A model generated the notes under the pieces. That model did not search any database. It was not told where the DNA came from and was given only the letters and a program-made list of their open reading frames with translations. Below, in pieces: positions 19,326-28,153 of a stretch of 32,533 nucleotides of DNA. How positions within the stretch are numbered: the first letter of the stretch is position 1; every line of letters begins with the position of its first letter. This DNA is from Bacteroidia bacterium (GTDB lineage: Bacteria > Bacteroidota > Bacteroidia > UKL13-3), in assembly GCA_020049855.1 (NCBI GenBank), contig JAGVLJ010000075.1, positions 1 through 32,533 of the forward strand. The letters run 5' to 3'. The position numbers and the translations under genes were made by a program.

Positions 19326-20372
19326 ATGGTATCAGCACTGGAAATCAGTAAGCTCCTCAACGGTGAGTTGATAGGAAATAAAGACACCGTCATCCGGTCG
19401 GTTTCTAAAATCGATCAGGGGCATCCCGAATCGCTTACTTTTCTTGCCAATCCCAAATACACCAACTTTATTTATGAAACCAAAGCTTCGGTAGTTTTGG
19501 TAGGCAAAGGTTTTAAAAGTAGTGTGCCCAATCATATTACCCTCATAAAAGTAGATGACCCATATGCCTCCTTTTGCCTAATACTTGATAAATTTTTTAA
19601 CAATAAATCGGCTCTTGCCGGAATTGAGCAACCAAGCTTCATTGCTCCCGATGCTACTTTGGGAAAAGAGGTGTATATAGGAGCCTTCGCTTATGTTGGG
19701 AGCCAGGTGCAGGTAGGCGATGGAACATTGATTTATCCGCAGGTGTATATTGGATCAAATGTAAAAATAGGGAAAAACTCCATTATTTATCCGGGTGTAA
19801 AAGTGTATAATCAATGTATAATTGGAGATAATTGCATTGTTCATGCTGGCACCGTAATTGGCAGTGATGGTTTTGGATTTGCTCCCCAAAAAGACGGAAG
19901 CTATGCAAAAATTCCTCAGATAGGAAATGTTATTATTGAAGACGATGTTGAAATTGGTTCCAATTGTTCTATTGACCGTGCAACCATGGGAAGCACTATT
20001 ATTCGAAAAGGTGTAAAACTAGATAACCTTATTCAGGTGGCACATAATGCCGAGGTAGGAAAAAACACCGTAATTGCCTCTCAAACGGGAGTATCGGGTA
20101 GTACCAAAATAGGCGAAAATTGTGTGATTGGAGGACAAGTTGGATTTGTAGGCCATATCAGTATTGCCAAAGGAAGCCAAATTGGTGCACAAAGTGGCAT
20201 TCCTAACTCAATTGATACACCCGGTCAAAAATGGATTGGCTCACCCGTACAGGAATACAAAAACTACCTGCGCTCAAGCATTGTTGTGAAACGTTTGCCT
20301 GATATGGATAAAAAACTGGATGAACTGGAAAAAGAAGTAGAAGAACTAAAGAAAAAATTAAAAGGCGAATAA
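19326..20372 (+). CDS. lpxD: UDP-3-O-acylglucosamine N-acyltransferase
   Basis: Third enzyme of lipid A synthesis, adding the N-linked acyl chain from acyl-ACP to UDP-3-O-acyl-glucosamine. The N-terminal uridine-binding domain (about 1-100) is followed by a left-handed beta-helix of hexapeptide repeats (about 105-300) with catalytic His240 in IQVAHNAEVG, and then a C-terminal coiled-coil helix rich in Lys/Glu (about 320-348). The length, 348 aa, is normal. The start is ATG 19326. The next gene, lpxC-fabZ, starts 5 nt after the stop. Confidence 0.95.
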   Translation: MVSALEISKLLNGELIGNKDTVIRSVSKIDQGHPESLTFLANPKYTNFIYETKASVVLVGKGFKSSVPNHITLIKVDDPYASFCLILDKFFNNKSALAGIEQPSFIAPDATLGKEVYIGAFAYVGSQVQVGDGTLIYPQVYIGSNVKIGKNSIIYPGVKVYNQCIIGDNCIVHAGTVIGSDGFGFAPQKDGSYAKIPQIGNVIIEDDVEIGSNCSIDRATMGSTIIRKGVKLDNLIQVAHNAEVGKNTVIASQTGVSGSTKIGENCVIGGQVGFVGHISIAKGSQIGAQSGIPNSIDTPGQKWIGSPVQEYKNYLRSSIVVKRLPDMDKKLDELEKEVEELKKKLKGE

Positions 20373-20377
20373 GTATT

Positions 20378-21769
20378 GTGAAACAAACAACAATTAAAAA
20401 CGAGATTACTATTTCGGGAGTAGGATTGCACACCGGACAAAAAGTAAATATGACTTTTTGCCCTGCTCCTGATAATCACTGGTACAAATTTCAACGCATA
20501 GATTTAGAAGGTAAACCCATTGTTGATGCAGACGTAGATAATGTGGTTGACACATCCAGAGGTACTACCATTGAGCAGAACGGAGCACGCATTTACACCG
20601 TAGAACATGTGTTGGCTGCATTGGTAGGATTGGAAATTGATAATTGCCTCGTTAAAATGGATGGACCTGAACCAGCTATTCTTGATGGAAGCTCCATTCA
20701 GTTTATGGAACAATTGGAAAAAGCTGGAATAAAAGAACTGGATGCCGACAGGGAATATTTTTCTGTCCCCCAAAACATTTATTACCACGAGCAAGACCGG
20801 GGGGTAGAAGTAATTGCCATGCCTCTGGACGATTATCGGCTCACGGTAATGGTTGACTATAATTCTCCTGTATTGGGAAGTCAACATGCATCGCTCACCA
20901 ATATCAAAGATTTTAGAAAAGAGATTTCTTCCTGCCGCACGTTTTGTTTTTTGCACGAACTGGAAATGCTGTATAACAACAACCTGATAAGAGGAGGCGA
21001 CTTAAACAATGCCATTGTAATTGTTGATCGCATTGTGGAAGAGCACGAACTGGAGCGCTTGGCAAAAATGTTTAACAAACCAAAAGTAGAAGTAAAAAAA
21101 GAAGGCATTCTTAATAATGTAGAACTACGTTTTTACAATGAGCCTGCCCGACATAAACTGCTTGATTTAGTTGGTGACCTTGCACTCATTGGTATGCCAC
21201 TTAAAGCCCAAATTATGGCTGCCCGGCCCGGCCATGCCGCCAATATAGCTTTTGGCAAAAAAATAAAGGCCTTAATAAAGAAACGGAAAAATAAATCACT
21301 CGTACCTGCCTACGACCCCAATACCAAACCTGTTTTGGATAATGTGGCCGTATCTAAATTACTTCCGCATACCTGGCCATTTCTTTTGGTAGATAAAATT
21401 ACAGAGTTGTCGTCAAACCATATTGTGGGAATTAAAAATGTATCGGCCGACCAATATTTTTTTCAAGGGCATTTTCAGGGCAATCCAATATTCCCCGGTG
21501 TATTGCAAATAGAAGCCATGGCTCAGGTGGGTGGGGTATTAGTGTTGAGCGGAGTGCCCGACCCCGAAAAGTACAGCACCTATTTTATGAAAATTGACAA
21601 TGCCAAGTTTAAAGACAAAGTAGTACCCGGTGATACATTGATTCTGAAACTGGAGTTGTTGGCTCCCATTCGAAGAGGTATTGTTACCATGAAAGGGATG
21701 ACTTTCGTTGGCGAAAAGCTGGTTTGTGAAGCCGACCTGATGGCTACGGTAGTAAAAGATAAAGCATGA
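20378..21769 (+). CDS. lpxC-fabZ: Bifunctional UDP-3-O-acyl-GlcNAc deacetylase / 3-hydroxyacyl-ACP dehydratase
   Basis: Natural fusion of LpxC, the committed zinc deacetylase of lipid A synthesis, and FabZ, the fatty-acid dehydratase that competes for the same hydroxyacyl-ACP pool. The LpxC part (about 1-305) has zinc ligands His77 (TVEHVLAAL), His259 and Asp263 (HKLLDLVGD), and catalytic His287 (RPGHAANI). The FabZ part (about 320-463) has LPHTWPFLLVDKI and the catalytic His365/Glu379 in GHFQGNPIFPG and QIEAMAQ. This fusion is characteristic of Bacteroidota. It starts at GTG 20378, and its stop overlaps lpxA (ATGA). Confidence 0.95.
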   Translation: MKQTTIKNEITISGVGLHTGQKVNMTFCPAPDNHWYKFQRIDLEGKPIVDADVDNVVDTSRGTTIEQNGARIYTVEHVLAALVGLEIDNCLVKMDGPEPAILDGSSIQFMEQLEKAGIKELDADREYFSVPQNIYYHEQDRGVEVIAMPLDDYRLTVMVDYNSPVLGSQHASLTNIKDFRKEISSCRTFCFLHELEMLYNNNLIRGGDLNNAIVIVDRIVEEHELERLAKMFNKPKVEVKKEGILNNVELRFYNEPARHKLLDLVGDLALIGMPLKAQIMAARPGHAANIAFGKKIKALIKKRKNKSLVPAYDPNTKPVLDNVAVSKLLPHTWPFLLVDKITELSSNHIVGIKNVSADQYFFQGHFQGNPIFPGVLQIEAMAQVGGVLVLSGVPDPEKYSTYFMKIDNAKFKDKVVPGDTLILKLELLAPIRRGIVTMKGMTFVGEKLVCEADLMATVVKDKA

Positions 21770-22545
21770 TTCATCCATTAGCTCTAGTACATAAAGATGC
21801 AAAACTAGCTCCCCGTGTAACGGTGAGCCAGTTTTCAACTGTAGAACGCAACGTAGAAATAGGTGAAGGCACGTGGATAGGCCCAAACGTTTCGATCATG
21901 GAAGGAACCCGCATCGGAAAAAACTGCCGCGTTTTTCCCGGGGCTGTAATCGGTGCAATTCCGCAGGATTTAAAATTCAAAGGCGAAAATTCGACCGTTG
22001 AAATAGGAGACAATACTACTATCAGAGAATGTGTAACCATTAATCGGGGAACGGTTGACCGTATGAAAACCAGTGTAGGCAATAACTGCCTGCTTATGGC
22101 TTACGTGCATTTGGCTCACGATTGTATTTTAGGTAATAATATCATTGTTGCCAACAGCGTAAATCTTGCCGGCCATGTTACCATCGAAGACTGGGCAATT
22201 TTAGAAGGCATTGTAGCCGTACAGCAATTTGTGCACATTGGTGCACATTCATTTATCACCGGAAGTTCGCTGGTACGCAAAAATGTTCCTCCATTCATCA
22301 AAGTTGCCCGCGAGCCCCTCCAATACATCGGCATCAATGCAGTTGGGTTGCGAAGAAGAGGTTTCAGCGATGAAAAAGTACGAGAAATAGAAGACTTCTA
22401 CCGCATACTTTTTGTAAAAGGACATAATATCACTAATGCTATTGGCATCATTGAGCAGGAAATTCCAGCAAGTGACGAAAAAGAGCAAATCCTCTCCTTT
22501 ATTCGCGAATCAAAAGACGGCATCGTTAAAGGTTATTCCCGTTAA
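21766..22545 (+). CDS. lpxA: UDP-N-acetylglucosamine O-acyltransferase
   Basis: First enzyme of lipid A synthesis, transferring a 3-hydroxyacyl chain to UDP-GlcNAc. It has a left-handed beta-helix of hexapeptide repeats at about residues 1-185, with catalytic His118 in VHLAHDC, and a C-terminal helical domain (INAVGLRRRGF, then about 60 aa). The length, 259 aa, is normal. The ATG overlaps the lpxC-fabZ stop by 4 nt, so translation is probably coupled. The order lpxD, lpxC-fabZ, lpxA is conserved in the phylum. An ABC ATPase gene follows after 10 nt. Confidence 0.95.
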   Translation: MIHPLALVHKDAKLAPRVTVSQFSTVERNVEIGEGTWIGPNVSIMEGTRIGKNCRVFPGAVIGAIPQDLKFKGENSTVEIGDNTTIRECVTINRGTVDRMKTSVGNNCLLMAYVHLAHDCILGNNIIVANSVNLAGHVTIEDWAILEGIVAVQQFVHIGAHSFITGSSLVRKNVPPFIKVAREPLQYIGINAVGLRRRGFSDEKVREIEDFYRILFVKGHNITNAIGIIEQEIPASDEKEQILSFIRESKDGIVKGYSR

Positions 22546-22555
22546 CCCGGTACAC

Positions 22556-23185
22556 ATGCAGATAAGGCTCGACCATATCGGCAAACGTTTTGGCAACGAA
22601 TGGATTTTTCGTGACGTAACCCTTGATTTCAATTCTCCGCAATCATACGCCCTGCTGGGCGCCAATGGAAGCGGTAAATCAACCCTGCTTCAGATTATTC
22701 TTGGTGCGGTTGCTTTCAGCAAAGGGGCAATCCACTATTCAGTAAATGGTTTACCGATGGCCTCCGACATCTTTTTCAGGCATTGTAGCTTCAGTTCGCC
22801 CTACCTCGAGTTAATTGAAGAGTTTACCTTAAACGAATTATTGGTATTCCACTTTTCGTTAAAACCCTTGAAACCCGGACTAACCCTGCAATCAATAACA
22901 GAAGAACTGGGACTTGAAAAGCACTGTCATAAACCGTTAAAAGCTTTTTCTTCAGGTATGAGGCAACGGGTAAAATTAGGGATCTCATTATTTGCTGAAA
23001 CAAGCGTATTGTTGTTAGATGAACCGTGTACTAACTTAGATGCTGCTGGCATCACCTGGTATCAAAAAATGATTGAAAAATATTGCAGCAAGCAATTGGT
23101 AATTGTTGCTTCAAATGTACCAGCCGAATACGATTTTTGTAAAAACCATATTCATATCGAGAATTACAAACAAGCAAAAAAATGA
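22556..23185 (+). CDS. ABC-type ATPase without adjacent permease
   Basis: A 209-aa ABC ATP-binding protein. Walker A is GANGSGKS (35-42), the signature is SSGMRQ (132-137), Walker B is LLLDEP (152-157) and the D-loop is NLD. The switch (H-loop) position, normally His, reads IVASNVP with Asn187, which may alter ATP hydrolysis. There is no membrane domain in the protein and no permease gene beside it. A longer frame begins at 22436, inside lpxA, but ATG 22556 matches the usual N-terminus. The downstream gene overlaps it by 4 nt (ATGA). It could energise a transporter encoded elsewhere or act as a soluble ABC protein. Confidence 0.87.
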   Translation: MQIRLDHIGKRFGNEWIFRDVTLDFNSPQSYALLGANGSGKSTLLQIILGAVAFSKGAIHYSVNGLPMASDIFFRHCSFSSPYLELIEEFTLNELLVFHFSLKPLKPGLTLQSITEELGLEKHCHKPLKAFSSGMRQRVKLGISLFAETSVLLLDEPCTNLDAAGITWYQKMIEKYCSKQLVIVASNVPAEYDFCKNHIHIENYKQAKK

Positions 23186-24180
23186 GTTTGTTCACCAATG
23201 GAATTTTACTTATGAAAACTGCACAAAATCTTTGGCGGGGCAAAAAGAAATGGAAACAGGAAGCATTAGCTCATACGGACAACTATATAAACACCGCTCA
23301 AAAAAATCATGACAAAACACTAACCACCGGCATTTTTTATAAACTGAAGGATTACCCGTATGAGGGACTGTTTGCAGCAAATCTGGTTGCCAATTTAATC
23401 AATTATAAATTAACTCCTGTTGAACGCAGACTTATAAGTAAAGCAGGAGCCGTACTGGCACTTGGCGATGTTTACTGTGATGATACAAACATCAGCTTTG
23501 AGAAAATGCACTTAATGCTCGAAGAGCCTCATCAGGCCGATCCGATTAATTCCCTCGATCGGTTGTTTCTTGAAATTTATAAAGATCTGCTAATAGAACT
23601 TGATGATAGCCAACAGGTATTTTTTCACCGTACACTAATACAGGGTTTTGAAGCCGAAAAAAACAGTCGTAAACTTAAAGACCCAAACCTTGACGCATCA
23701 AAAGTAAAAGAAATTAGTAAAAACAAAGGAGGTATTAGTTTACTTATCTACCGCTCACTGATGCACATCCCGCTAGATGAAAAGGAAAGGGAAGTTTTAT
23801 GGCTTGCCGGAGCATTTACCCAATTAATTGACGACCTGTTTGATTTACGTTGGGATATAGAAAAGCACACGCAAACATCGGCTACCATTTGCACCTCATT
23901 TGGAGATATAAGCAATCAACTGGAAGAACATTTCTCCTTACTGGTTAAAACACTTAAAAACTCACAACTTAATCAGGGAAAATGCAGGGAATTTGCCTTT
24001 GTATTCTATGTTTTTAAACTTGGAGCTGATGCCTATATTAACCAACTTAGAACCTATTGCGATGAGCGCATCAGAACTGAACAAATTCTCTCATTGTCAA
24101 AAAAACAATTGCACTTTGTGCATTTCGATTTGAGCAATGTGACGTTTGTTTTGCCCAAGGCACTAAGGTTTATTTACTGA
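23182..24180 (+). CDS. All-alpha protein with a DDxxD motif, possibly a class I prenyl/terpene-synthase-like enzyme
   Basis: A 332-aa protein, helical and with no obvious membrane segment. An aspartate-rich stretch, LIDDLFDLRWDIEKHT (Asp217, Asp218, Asp221, Asp225), matches the DDxxD metal-binding motif of class I isoprenoid/terpene synthases. A possible second acidic cluster is GDVYCDD (about 95-101). The preceding NKGGISLLIYRSLM helix recalls the KGG/KS segment before the second acidic motif in squalene/phytoene-synthase-like and DUF2600 proteins. I do not recognise it as a named enzyme. It overlaps the ABC ATPase gene by 4 nt and meets the minus-strand lipoprotein gene tail to tail, overlapping by 7 nt. 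ATG 23182 is used; ATG 23212 is an alternative. Confidence 0.55.
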   Translation: MSLFTNGILLMKTAQNLWRGKKKWKQEALAHTDNYINTAQKNHDKTLTTGIFYKLKDYPYEGLFAANLVANLINYKLTPVERRLISKAGAVLALGDVYCDDTNISFEKMHLMLEEPHQADPINSLDRLFLEIYKDLLIELDDSQQVFFHRTLIQGFEAEKNSRKLKDPNLDASKVKEISKNKGGISLLIYRSLMHIPLDEKEREVLWLAGAFTQLIDDLFDLRWDIEKHTQTSATICTSFGDISNQLEEHFSLLVKTLKNSQLNQGKCREFAFVFYVFKLGADAYINQLRTYCDERIRTEQILSLSKKQLHFVHFDLSNVTFVLPKALRFIY

Positions 24181-24386
24181 CCTTTGAGTTTTTTTTGCCG
24201 TTGCATATCAATCGTCTTTTTTAGCGAATCAACTTGTAGTTGATTTTCCAAACCCGGCCTCGGCATTTCTGGTGTTACTATTTGATGCGGCTGAACTGCT
24301 CTCTTTTTAGAACAGCATCCATTAACAAACCCGAAGAACAGCAAACTAATGCCCCACCACAAATTTTTGAGATATCCCTTCGTCAT
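24174..24386 (-). CDS. Small putative lipoprotein
   Basis: A 70-aa protein. It has a hydrophobic N-terminal segment (residues about 8-22) followed by FVNGCCSKKR, where Cys24 fits a lipoprotein signal (V-x-G-C), then a polar, proline-containing tail ending in basic residues. The start (ATG 24386) lies 41 nt inside the end of the upstream T9SS cargo gene, and the stop overlaps the converging gene by 7 nt. Function unknown. A short lipoprotein is plausible because the signal is good, but its size makes the call tentative. Confidence 0.5.
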   Translation of the reverse strand: MTKGYLKNLWWGISLLFFGFVNGCCSKKRAVQPHQIVTPEMPRPGLENQLQVDSLKKTIDMQRQKKLKGQ

Positions 24387-26205
24387 GGTTAGTTACTGCC
24401 TTTAGAATATAACTGCCCGCACTTAATTGCGAAATCTCAAGCGAAACTTTATAGCTGCCGTAGGGCAGCTTCATTTCCTGAAGTTTTTTTATTTCATGGC
24501 CGTTCATATCCGTAATTGAGAAAGTATACAGCCCGGGGCTTTCTACCTGCATGGTCAAATAAATAAACTGGGTGGCCGGGTTAGGAAATACTTTTAATTC
24601 AGAAAGTGTTAACCCGCCTGTTGATAGCTGCGTATCATTAGCTTTAATTTTTGCAATGGTTGTAGGGTGCTGGCTGATGGTATTTCCGTAGGAACCCGAA
24701 ATCCAAACTACTCCCAATTCATTATATTTTCGCTGAATTCCGGTATAATCTCCCCATCGTTCCATCGAATCGGCAAGCAGATTAATGGAACCATCACCCT
24801 CTCGGATGCGTATATACGAATAAATGACACCGTAACGATCAATATATACTGCAGATGTGCCGGGCTGCCTTTGCTGCGACACATGCGAAAAAGTAATAAG
24901 TAAACTTTTATCAGCACCTCCGCCACCTATATATGCTAGCGAAGGATATCCTATATCTAACGTATCGTAAGAAATATACTGTGCAGTGACCTGTGGGGAG
25001 GCATACAATCCGGTTATTTTCCCCAAATAGACAGATGGACTGAAATTTACCGGCTCAATGGTATTGCCTACAAAATAAATTATTCCACCCTCAATAATGG
25101 ATGAAAGGGCACGTGCATCGTTAGTTTGCAAATATTGCCCGCTAGGCTGAATGGCGGATGGTGGCAACCCATATGGTTTATTCGATTTCAGAATGCGTGT
25201 GCCTAGTGTAGCTGTCCCCGACTCAAGTGTATTGCTTATAGTATGTAAAAACACTGTATCATTGGATGCATCGCCAGGGCGAAGGGAAATAAAATATGTT
25301 TCGGGACCCCATGGCTGCGAACCTCCCTGCACAGCACAAATACTCCAGATGGGTCGACCATTATACGTAATACTATCATAATATTTGCTGGAAAGGGAAA
25401 GACCGTCAAATCCGTCCTGTTTTTTTACCTGCCAAATAATGGATTGTTTAAATCCCTCGCGCCAGCTTTTACCATCCTGCAACAGATTTCCTGTCACAAA
25501 CAAATCCTTTTTTGAAATACACACAATCGGATAATCAAACCAAGTTCCATTGCCCCACCTATTTCCTGCAAGTGAATAAAATTTCCAGCTTAACGTGGGA
25601 TCATTACTTTGCGAAAACCCAATTACAATGCGTGAATCATTGCTGCTGTCACCCTGTAAAAACACCATGATAAAACGATCCGCCAGAGGGTCATAAATAA
25701 TCCGAGGATCATACGTACGGTTTAGCGCTCCCAACTGATTGGTGGTTATAGCCGACAGCGATTTGTAGGGATTGATTGATGTTCCCGTTTCATCGTACAT
25801 GCGCACATTGGTATTTACCACACTCACAATTTTGCCTCCGTTAGAAATGGCCACACTATTATCGTTGGGGGTTCCGTTTGACCCGTTACCCGTAAAAACT
25901 TTATCAATTGACGGGGCTGTAACCGTGTTAGTATTGTTAGTTTTATTTTTCGCCTGATTCATTAAATGAAGCATCCGTTGTTTGTCAATTGAGCTTTTAA
26001 GTTCTTTTGAATATCCTTTAGGTTCCGGAAATGCCTTGTTCGTTTGAAATTCGATAGTAAAAAGCCAATTATCGGGCAACGTACTAAAATTAATTTCGGT
26101 AAAAGGAATAATCGGCTCCAGATTTACTTCCCGGTTGGTTAGTTGCTGTGCTTTAGATCCAATTACTGCACTGAGTAATATAAAAAGCGAAAAAACATAT
26201 TTCAT
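24346..26205 (-). CDS. Secreted protein with C-terminal T9SS type A sorting domain
   Basis: A 619-aa exported protein. A Sec signal peptide (residues 1-19, ending SKA-QQ) is followed by a large domain with GNGSNGTPNDNSVAISNGG, YDPRIIYDPLADRF and repeated beta-propeller-like segments (about 100-520). The last 85 residues form a T9SS sorting domain (LKVFPNPATQFIYL, then YTFSITDMNGHEIKKL, then LSAGSYILKAV and FVV), which would direct export and surface attachment through the type IX system. The central domain has no catalytic motif I recognise and may bind or display something on the surface. It follows the EamA gene by 4 nt in a long operon that also contains porT. Confidence 0.85.
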   Translation of the reverse strand: MKYVFSLFILLSAVIGSKAQQLTNREVNLEPIIPFTEINFSTLPDNWLFTIEFQTNKAFPEPKGYSKELKSSIDKQRMLHLMNQAKNKTNNTNTVTAPSIDKVFTGNGSNGTPNDNSVAISNGGKIVSVVNTNVRMYDETGTSINPYKSLSAITTNQLGALNRTYDPRIIYDPLADRFIMVFLQGDSSNDSRIVIGFSQSNDPTLSWKFYSLAGNRWGNGTWFDYPIVCISKKDLFVTGNLLQDGKSWREGFKQSIIWQVKKQDGFDGLSLSSKYYDSITYNGRPIWSICAVQGGSQPWGPETYFISLRPGDASNDTVFLHTISNTLESGTATLGTRILKSNKPYGLPPSAIQPSGQYLQTNDARALSSIIEGGIIYFVGNTIEPVNFSPSVYLGKITGLYASPQVTAQYISYDTLDIGYPSLAYIGGGGADKSLLITFSHVSQQRQPGTSAVYIDRYGVIYSYIRIREGDGSINLLADSMERWGDYTGIQRKYNELGVVWISGSYGNTISQHPTTIAKIKANDTQLSTGGLTLSELKVFPNPATQFIYLTMQVESPGLYTFSITDMNGHEIKKLQEMKLPYGSYKVSLEISQLSAGSYILKAVTNHDEGISQKFVVGH

Positions 26206-26209
26206 ATAA

Positions 26210-27076
26210 CTATATTTTGTTTCTTTTTTTCAGAAATAGATACGTAAAGATAGCAAATAAAATTAAAAAAGTTCCAGCATAAAACCCGGGACTCATGTAT
26301 TCATCATCGCCAAACACAAGCAATGAGAGCAAAATTCCATACACCGGCTCCAGGTTGGTAATCATATTCACCGTAAAAGGGGTAAGTTCTTTCATTAAAT
26401 GCACACTTACTACAAATGGAATGGCCGTACACACAATACTTAGTATTACCAGCAGCCAAAAATCAGTTGCTGAAGGTACAGAAGGTAATCCAATATCACC
26501 ATCAATCAGCATCATGCAGGTAAGCAAAATAAGAGCCCCGCCTATTTCATAAAAGGTGATGCTGTAGGCCGGAAAACGATTGGCAATTTTACCATTTAAC
26601 ACCACAAATAATGAACCAGCCAATGCAGCCAATATCCCATAAAAAATACCTTCCGAATACCCCGACTCAAAACGAAATATGAGGGAAATGCCGATGATAA
26701 CCACCAATGCCAGAAAAACCTCCTTAAGCGAAATAGCCCTTTTGAAAAATAATGGCTCAAGCAAAGAAGTAAACAAGGTTATAGTGGAAAGGCTTATTAG
26801 CGTAATGGATACATTTGACACCTTGATGGAATGGTAAAAACAATACCAGTGAAAACCTACAATTAGTCCGATAAATAAAATCCAAATGATTGCCTTGGGG
26901 GGTAGCTGTAGTTTAAACCTTATAAACCTAAAATACACCCAAAGGCTGATGATGGTAAACAGCACACGATACCATACCAAATCAATAGCCTGTAAGCTAA
27001 TCAACTTTCCTAAAATGGCTGTAAATCCCCAGATAAAAACAATTACATGAAACCTGGCCAAGGCAGTTGCTTTCAC
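26210..27076 (-). CDS. EamA/DMT-superfamily transporter
   Basis: A 288-aa membrane protein with about ten hydrophobic helices in two EamA repeats (residues about 5-135 and 145-282). It has the usual internal motifs (WYRVLFTIISLW in the first half, NLEPVYGILLSLLVFGD in the second) and a basic C-terminus (LKKRNKI). The substrate cannot be predicted; members move amino acids, nucleotides or other small metabolites. The start is GTG at 27076, directly after the stop of the LPS-permease gene with no spacing, so the two are probably coupled. Confidence 0.87.
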   Translation of the reverse strand: MKATALARFHVIVFIWGFTAILGKLISLQAIDLVWYRVLFTIISLWVYFRFIRFKLQLPPKAIIWILFIGLIVGFHWYCFYHSIKVSNVSITLISLSTITLFTSLLEPLFFKRAISLKEVFLALVVIIGISLIFRFESGYSEGIFYGILAALAGSLFVVLNGKIANRFPAYSITFYEIGGALILLTCMMLIDGDIGLPSVPSATDFWLLVILSIVCTAIPFVVSVHLMKELTPFTVNMITNLEPVYGILLSLLVFGDDEYMSPGFYAGTFLILFAIFTYLFLKKRNKI

Positions 27077-28153
27077 TTATTTCGGGGCTTTAACGGCTAT
27101 CCCTATTCCGAGGATAAGGTAGCAAATATTGGGAATCCAAACAGCTATGAACGGATGCATTTGCCCGCTGATGCCGTAACTAAGCGAAAACTGGGTAAGT
27201 AATAAAAAAGTAAAACTAATAAATAATCCTAACCCAAGGTGAATACCCACCCCACCCCTTACTTTGCGGGCAGCAATGGCCACCCCAAGCAGTGTAAGTA
27301 CGAACATGGCAAATGAAGAAGCCTGTCGTTTATACTTCTCAACCAGCAAATTATTAATATTGGCTCCTCCTTCACTCATGGTCTCCTTTATCTCGTGATT
27401 TAATTCAAAATAATTAAGTGTGGAAACTACCAGATTGGTTGCCGAAAATTCATCAGGGGTGATGGCCAAAGATGTATCTTTCCTGTACCCCGATTCAATA
27501 GTTTCTCCATTAAGGCCAAACCTTCGAATCACGTAATTTTCCAGCGTCCATTTTTTCTTTGCTTTGTTCCAGATAAGCTGGTCGGCAGTAAGTCGGTATA
27601 TTTTATCAGTGCCTATAAAATAATCGGTAGTAAATTGATAGCCGGCACTATCGGTTAAATTAAATGCCTCAAGGGTTACAAATAAACCGGGTGCCTTGCG
27701 CAAATACACTTTACTGCTAAGCACTCGATGCTCGTTACGAACGTAGGTATCTTCAAAGGCCTCCACTTTTTTATGGCATGGAGGAACCACAAAAGCTGCT
27801 AAAATGAAATTAAGAATTGCAATAACTGAGGCTCCTGCAAAATAAGGAAATAAAAATCTGGTGTAATTAACTCCTGTCCCTAAAATTGCGATAATTTCGC
27901 TGCGTGTAGCAAGTTGCGAGGTAAAATAAATAACAGCTATAAAAATAAACAAGGGGCTAAGTAAACTTATGTAATATGGTATAAAATTGAGGTAGTAATC
28001 AAACACAATAGCCTTCATCGGGGCTTTCTTCTCAATAAAATCATCAACTTTTTCAGTAAGATCAATAACCATTACAATCAAAATTATAAGTGCCATGGTA
28101 AAAAAAAATGTACCAAGGAACTTTTTAATAATGTAGCGGTCAAGTATTTTCAC
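27077..28153 (-). CDS. LptF/LptG-family LPS export permease
   Basis: A 358-aa YjgP/YjgQ-family permease of the Lpt system, which extracts LPS from the inner membrane. It has the N-terminal MKILDRYIIKKFLGTFF, two TMs at about 12-32 and 52-80 and a third at about 100-125. A periplasmic beta-jellyroll region spans about 130-280 and three C-terminal TMs lie at about 285-355. I cannot tell from the sequence whether it is LptF or LptG. It starts at GTG 28153, 1 nt after the tgt stop. This links LPS transport to the lipid A and heptose genes elsewhere in the window. Confidence 0.9.
   Translation of the reverse strand: MKILDRYIIKKFLGTFFFTMALIILIVMVIDLTEKVDDFIEKKAPMKAIVFDYYLNFIPYYISLLSPLFIFIAVIYFTSQLATRSEIIAILGTGVNYTRFLFPYFAGASVIAILNFILAAFVVPPCHKKVEAFEDTYVRNEHRVLSSKVYLRKAPGLFVTLEAFNLTDSAGYQFTTDYFIGTDKIYRLTADQLIWNKAKKKWTLENYVIRRFGLNGETIESGYRKDTSLAITPDEFSATNLVVSTLNYFELNHEIKETMSEGGANINNLLVEKYKRQASSFAMFVLTLLGVAIAARKVRGGVGIHLGLGLFISFTFLLLTQFSLSYGISGQMHPFIAVWIPNICYLILGIGIAVKAPK

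Follow-up and report, generated by a model that had tools for sequence, protein, structure and literature searches.

The window, by which we mean the whole 32,533-nt stretch of DNA analyzed, carries a run of lipid A genes on the forward strand. The first ORF of this stretch of the lipid A operon is lpxD (19326-20372), which is followed by lpxC-fabZ (20378-21769) and lpxA (21766-22545), the upstream neighbor that marks the conserved location of an ABC ATPase gene. The ATPase gene (22556-23185, forward strand) starts 10 nt after lpxA and encodes a single-domain protein of 209 aa, and no permease gene adjoins it at this locus. Its stop codon overlaps the start codon of the next forward-strand gene (23182-24180) in the 4-nt sequence ATGA (23182-23185). 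This gene encodes a 332-aa protein of an uncharacterised family, which the structural model and alignments place in the class I isoprenoid-synthase fold. The first-pass annotation had described a permease-less ABC ATPase after lpxA in which Asn stands at the switch His position, and a 332-aa helical protein bearing LIDDLFD whose gene overlaps that of the ATPase by 4 nt. The ORFs and alignments bore out both statements, with the Asn at position 187 in the sequence VASN and LIDDLFD at residues 215-221. Among congeners, the two genes overlap by 4 nt in G002 and by 1 nt in G001. The ATGA overlap suggests, at the sequence level, that translation of the two genes is coupled, and they are likely carried on a shared transcript. 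Further downstream, the reverse strand (24346-28153) encodes a T9SS C-terminal sorting-domain protein, an EamA-type transporter and an LptF/G-like permease (27077-28153).

The ATPase is a member of the Pfam family ABC_tran (E 3e-20), with a Walker A motif GANGSGKST, a signature motif SSGMRQ and a Walker B motif LLLDEP. Ortholog alignment located the switch (H-loop) His position at Asn187, encoded by AAT at 23114-23116 (forward strand). All 30 orthologs aligned share SN at this position, indicating that the Asn is a fixed feature and not a sign of decay. The Q-loop Gln also appears to be replaced in the alignment (FSSPY). Of 149 genomes of the class, 121 carry a single ortholog, and in 89 of the 117 genomes having both genes the ATPase gene lies directly downstream of lpxA, with a median gap of 30 nt. 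Three ATPase-less genomes were inspected; in each an efp-like gene follows lpxA, in one of them after a small ORF. Assignment as LptB was rejected, as the ATPase scored 56 bits with TIGR04406 against a cut-off of 240, and a true LptB on contig C67 scored 371 bits.

With the ccmA model TIGR01189, the ATPase scored ~83 bits, which does not reach the cut-off of 131.6, and other ABC proteins of the genome scored higher. The model does not discriminate in these genomes; no protein in 12 Bacteroidota genomes reached its cut-off. The family HMM did not single out CcmA among the ABC proteins of E. coli (CcmA, 83.3 bits; LolD, 81.4 bits), and in a tree of ABC proteins from E. coli and Bacteroidota the family did not fall beside E. 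coli CcmA, whose branch is very long.

Prompted by the weak ccmA match, we compared the presence of CcmB over the same 149 genomes. Both proteins were present in 118 genomes and both absent from 23; three genomes had only the ATPase and five had only CcmB. The two thus matched in 141 of 149 genomes (Fisher p 4e-19, in a test that treats genomes as independent and ignores shared ancestry). Among the CcmB-only genomes, G081 carries a diverged, sub-threshold ATPase right after lpxA (L205), and G085 and G153 are just 72% and 65% complete. The ATPase and CcmB were lost together twice inside families (f11/g64 and f33/g46), indicating that the match does not stem from one ancestral event. COX1 was found in 144 of the 149 genomes, and most genomes missing both the ATPase and CcmB retain a terminal oxidase, so that an aerobic way of life does not account for the match.

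We then examined the ccm loci, in which ccmB was named by Pfam CcmB and the other genes by reading translations. The operon in the genome of the window runs ccmB-ccmC-ccmD-like-ccmE-ccmF and contains no ccmA. Likewise, no adjacent ccmA was found in the ccm operon of G163, in G049 (ccmB-C-D) or in G126 (ccmB alone). Among the 30 best ccmB loci phylum-wide, 29 had no ABC ATPase gene within 1.5 kb of ccmB. The remaining locus, L235, comes from a different class of Bacteroidota and has the order ATPase-ccmB-ccmC-ccmE, so that adjacency was seen at one locus. The L235 ATPase scored 174.6 bits with the HMM of the lpxA-linked family, compared with at most 94 bits for His-bearing single-domain ABC proteins and 128 bits for a 655-aa ABC protein. 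It has Asn at the switch position and, in the alignment, the same SPY pattern at the Q-loop.

From these comparisons of sequence and gene content, the most likely role of the ATPase is that of the Bacteroidota CcmA, although we do not claim it as a member of TIGR01189. Its partner would be CcmB, whose gene lies elsewhere together with those of CcmC, D, E and F, and ATP would drive the release of heme-loaded CcmE in the maturation of cytochrome c. The ATPase gene of Bacteroidia stands apart from ccmB, usually behind lpxA. Like CcmA of the E. coli CcmABCD heme-release complex (PMC9616876), the protein is a single-domain ATPase of ~207-209 aa that co-occurs with CcmB and keeps the Walker A Asn (N36 in E. 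coli), and its relative in L235 adjoins ccmB-ccmC-ccmE. Unlike E. coli CcmA, it is encoded apart from ccmB and beside lpxA, it falls below the TIGR01189 cut-off, and it has Asn in place of an essential His: in E. coli CcmA, the H184A mutation of the switch His184 gives 0% cytochrome c (PMC9616876). This difference either counts against the CcmA assignment or means that the mechanism differs.

The ATPase might instead partner another membrane protein, such as an ABC-2 or LptFG-type permease, and match CcmB only indirectly. Sequence by itself does not mark the ATPase as CcmA, and the LptF/G-like permease is encoded on the opposite strand at a distance of a few kb. We nevertheless consider such a partnership unlikely, because a canonical LptB is encoded elsewhere, the ATPase adjoins ccmB in L235, and its phylogenetic profile matches that of CcmB far more tightly than that of lpxA or COX1. 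The first-pass annotation had suggested that the ATPase and its neighbor may, as a pair, modify or move a lipid; both the profile and the bridging L235 locus point to a CcmA role.

Sequence searches of Pfam, NCBIfam and the PDB gave no notable match for the 332-aa protein, and a single-sequence query with it against genome contigs found no relatives. Family alignments were made from 28 diverse members (A2) and from 62 members (A4), mostly 13-25% identical. An AlphaFold (AF2) model built on the 62-row alignment reached a pLDDT of 93.8 and a pTM of 0.91. Among the matches listed in the fold search (Foldseek, VIA-align), all were isoprenoid synthases, aligned over ~230-290 residues with Z scores of 15.3-17.4, which exceed the tool's warning level for helical bundles. 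They comprised polyprenyl, geranyl and farnesyl diphosphate synthases, MoeN5, and class IB and sesterterpene synthases. A Roseivirga homolog that was modeled independently showed the same fold, with MoeN5 as the top match (Z 17.6), tied with others within 1. These models indicate that the predicted fold of the 332-aa protein is that of the class I isoprenoid-synthase superfamily, as the first-pass annotation had guessed from the LIDDLFD motif. MoeN5, a prenyltransferase of moenomycin biosynthesis, is among the best structural matches at ~13% identity; fold alone gives no function.

Like class I isoprenoid synthases, the 332-aa protein combines an all-helical fold with two Asp-rich motifs and with a Lys and a Gln before the second motif. 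The first motif is D96-V-Y-C-D100 (23467-23481, forward strand), which reads DDFFD in most relatives and falls, by hhalign, on the DDxxD motif of polyprenyl synthases. The second is Q214-L-I-D217-D218-L-F-D221-L-R-W-D225 (23821-23856, forward strand), which aligned to FQIQDDLLDVYGD of the polyprenyl synthases. Between them lies the invariant Lys182 (23725-23727, forward strand), identified by profile alignment as the counterpart of the KT lysine of polyprenyl synthases. Profile-profile alignment (hhalign) against polyprenyl synthases of the same phylum brought the two Asp motifs and the Lys into register (E 0.001-0.002): DDFFD fell on the first DDxxD, the KGG lysine on the KT lysine, and QLENDIFDVYKD on QIQDDLLDVYGD. 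The family differs from class I isoprenoid synthases in that its second motif is (N/D)DxxDxxxD and in that it has no IPP-site motifs; it also shares only ~10% sequence identity with the solved isoprenoid synthase structures that it matched and stays below any Pfam or NCBIfam threshold. The spacing of (N/D)DxxDxxxD fits the NSE/DTE triad of canonical terpene cyclases, but the Ser/Thr and Glu of the triad are Asp in the family.

D96, K182, G210, Q214, D218, D221 and D225 are invariant in both A2 and A4, and position 100 is D or E throughout. Conservation of Asp217, 218, 221 and 225 had been anticipated; it holds for the last three across 28 to 62 relatives but not for position 217, which is often Asn (16 D and 12 N in A2; 1 D and 61 N in A4). 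The D96/D100 motif, overlooked earlier, is as conserved as the second motif. Position 54 is basic (K or R) and position 58 is Tyr in nearly all members. Asp97, Arg281 and the C-terminal Arg307/Asp313 are kept in most relatives, and the genus of the window lacks all four. In a quick family tree, this genus forms a long branch of uncertain placement. Given the long branch and the lost Asp97 and Arg307/Asp313, the protein of this genus may have drifted to another activity.

In chain-elongating synthases such as farnesyl diphosphate synthase, the GKxxR and RR motifs bind IPP. GKxxR was found in none of the 28 A2 members and none of the 62 A4 members, versus all 16 control polyprenyl synthases. The RR pair after the first motif was found in 0/28 (A2) and 2/62 (A4) members, versus 16/16 controls. 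Since these IPP-site motifs are missing, the 332-aa protein probably adds no IPP units; a terpene-synthase-like enzyme or a prenyltransferase that uses a non-IPP acceptor is more probable. We envisage a soluble enzyme in which the Asp motifs would bind Mg2+ and ionise a prenyl diphosphate, and which would then cyclise or rearrange the prenyl cation or hand it to a non-IPP acceptor.

It is improbable that the protein instead elongates chains as a polyprenyl diphosphate synthase whose IPP site is unusual. The nearest Pfam family is polyprenyl_synt (PF00348), to which 10 of the 62 members had weak matches (best E 0.00097) and the window protein had no match up to E 1, below the gathering score. 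Both Asp motifs and the KT lysine align with polyprenyl synthases, and the conserved K/R54 and Tyr58 could serve a diphosphate site. However, GKxxR and the RR pair are missing and the genome already encodes two canonical polyprenyl synthases, and for these reasons the protein was not filed as a polyprenyl diphosphate synthase; its patchy occurrence and the tandem paralogs in some genomes also resemble accessory metabolism. A pseudo-enzyme that retained the fold for binding or regulation rather than catalysis is very unlikely: although the genus lost Asp97, Arg281 and Arg307, present in most relatives, it retained D96, D100, K182, Q214, D218, D221 and D225, and the dN/dS of ~0.10 between two congeners indicates purifying selection on the gene. 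A non-IPP enzyme of the superfamily is the reading that we carry forward.

Each of the three genomes of the genus carries the 332-aa gene (77 and ~50% identity). Of 395 genomes of the class, a profile search detected the family in 21 (~5%), with up to three copies per genome. A partial contig scan that used closer family members yielded 152 relatives; the best 80 were retained. Across these 80 loci the family had no constant neighbor gene, its neighbors varying by locus. A SAM-dependent methyltransferase gene adjoins the family gene in 9 of the 80 loci (L072, 7153-8001; L073, L089, L107, L111, L117, L121, L125 and L066), in three arrangements, and overlaps it once. This methyltransferase could methylate the substrate or product of the enzyme; it is closer to generic O/N-methyltransferases than to prenyl-diphosphate methyltransferases and is a lead only. 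In one genus of another family, diverged tandem paralogs were found (L153, 8631-10602; L154, 9650-11618), with bioD-like and FKBP-like lipoprotein genes nearby.

Among the loci seen, the ATPase and 332-aa genes adjoin only in the genus of the window. Outside the genus, neither the ATPase nor lpx genes were found near the enzyme gene in any of the 80 other loci, with flanks of up to 8 kb. A distant homolog in another family (G156; L156, 8431-9654, reverse strand) lies between an HD-domain gene and lpxD, divergent from lpxD; this is a single case. With no adjacency of both genes found outside the genus, a shared function of the two proteins in lipid transport is unlikely. The first-pass annotation had seen them as a pair that may modify or move a lipid, a view not supported by their distribution (ATPase, 121/149 genomes; enzyme, 21/395) or by an adjacency seen in one genus. 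It had also pointed to where the lipid A operon ends; the ATPase commonly follows lpxA, and this position is uninformative as to a lipid role of the DDxxD gene. A joint system of ATPase and isoprenoid enzyme for making or moving an isoprenoid lipid of the envelope is thus highly improbable, despite the 4-nt overlap in two genomes, the adjacency in 3/3 genomes of the genus, the isoprenoid-synthase fold and the lpx-adjacent homolog in G156, because the genes are unlinked outside the genus, the ATPase is near-universal in the class and the enzyme is found in ~5% of genomes, and the ATPase tracks CcmB.

We consider it likely that the operon combines two unrelated functions, an enzyme of the isoprenoid-synthase superfamily that does not use IPP as acceptor and a CcmA-type ATPase, and the 332-aa gene would have been added behind the ATPase gene in one genus. 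The complete reading is one that we hold with evenly balanced confidence: a Bacteroidota CcmA cut from the ccm operon, placed behind lpxA in most Bacteroidia, lacking the usual Q-loop Gln and working with Asn at the switch position; in one genus, translation of this CcmA would be coupled to that of a class I isoprenoid synthase from an undescribed Bacteroidota family that does not use IPP. Literature searches returned no report of a displaced CcmA or of the 332-aa family; most subscription journals lay outside their scope, which makes this weak evidence of novelty.

If true, the CcmA role of the ATPase would fill a gap, the missing CcmA of the phylum Bacteroidota, and would raise the question of how ATP hydrolysis proceeds with Asn at a position where E. 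coli CcmA depends on His. The 332-aa family, for which a partial scan gave 152 loci and which carries no Pfam or NCBIfam name, would enlarge the isoprenoid-synthase superfamily in Bacteroidota as a candidate group of enzymes with clear residues for mutation.
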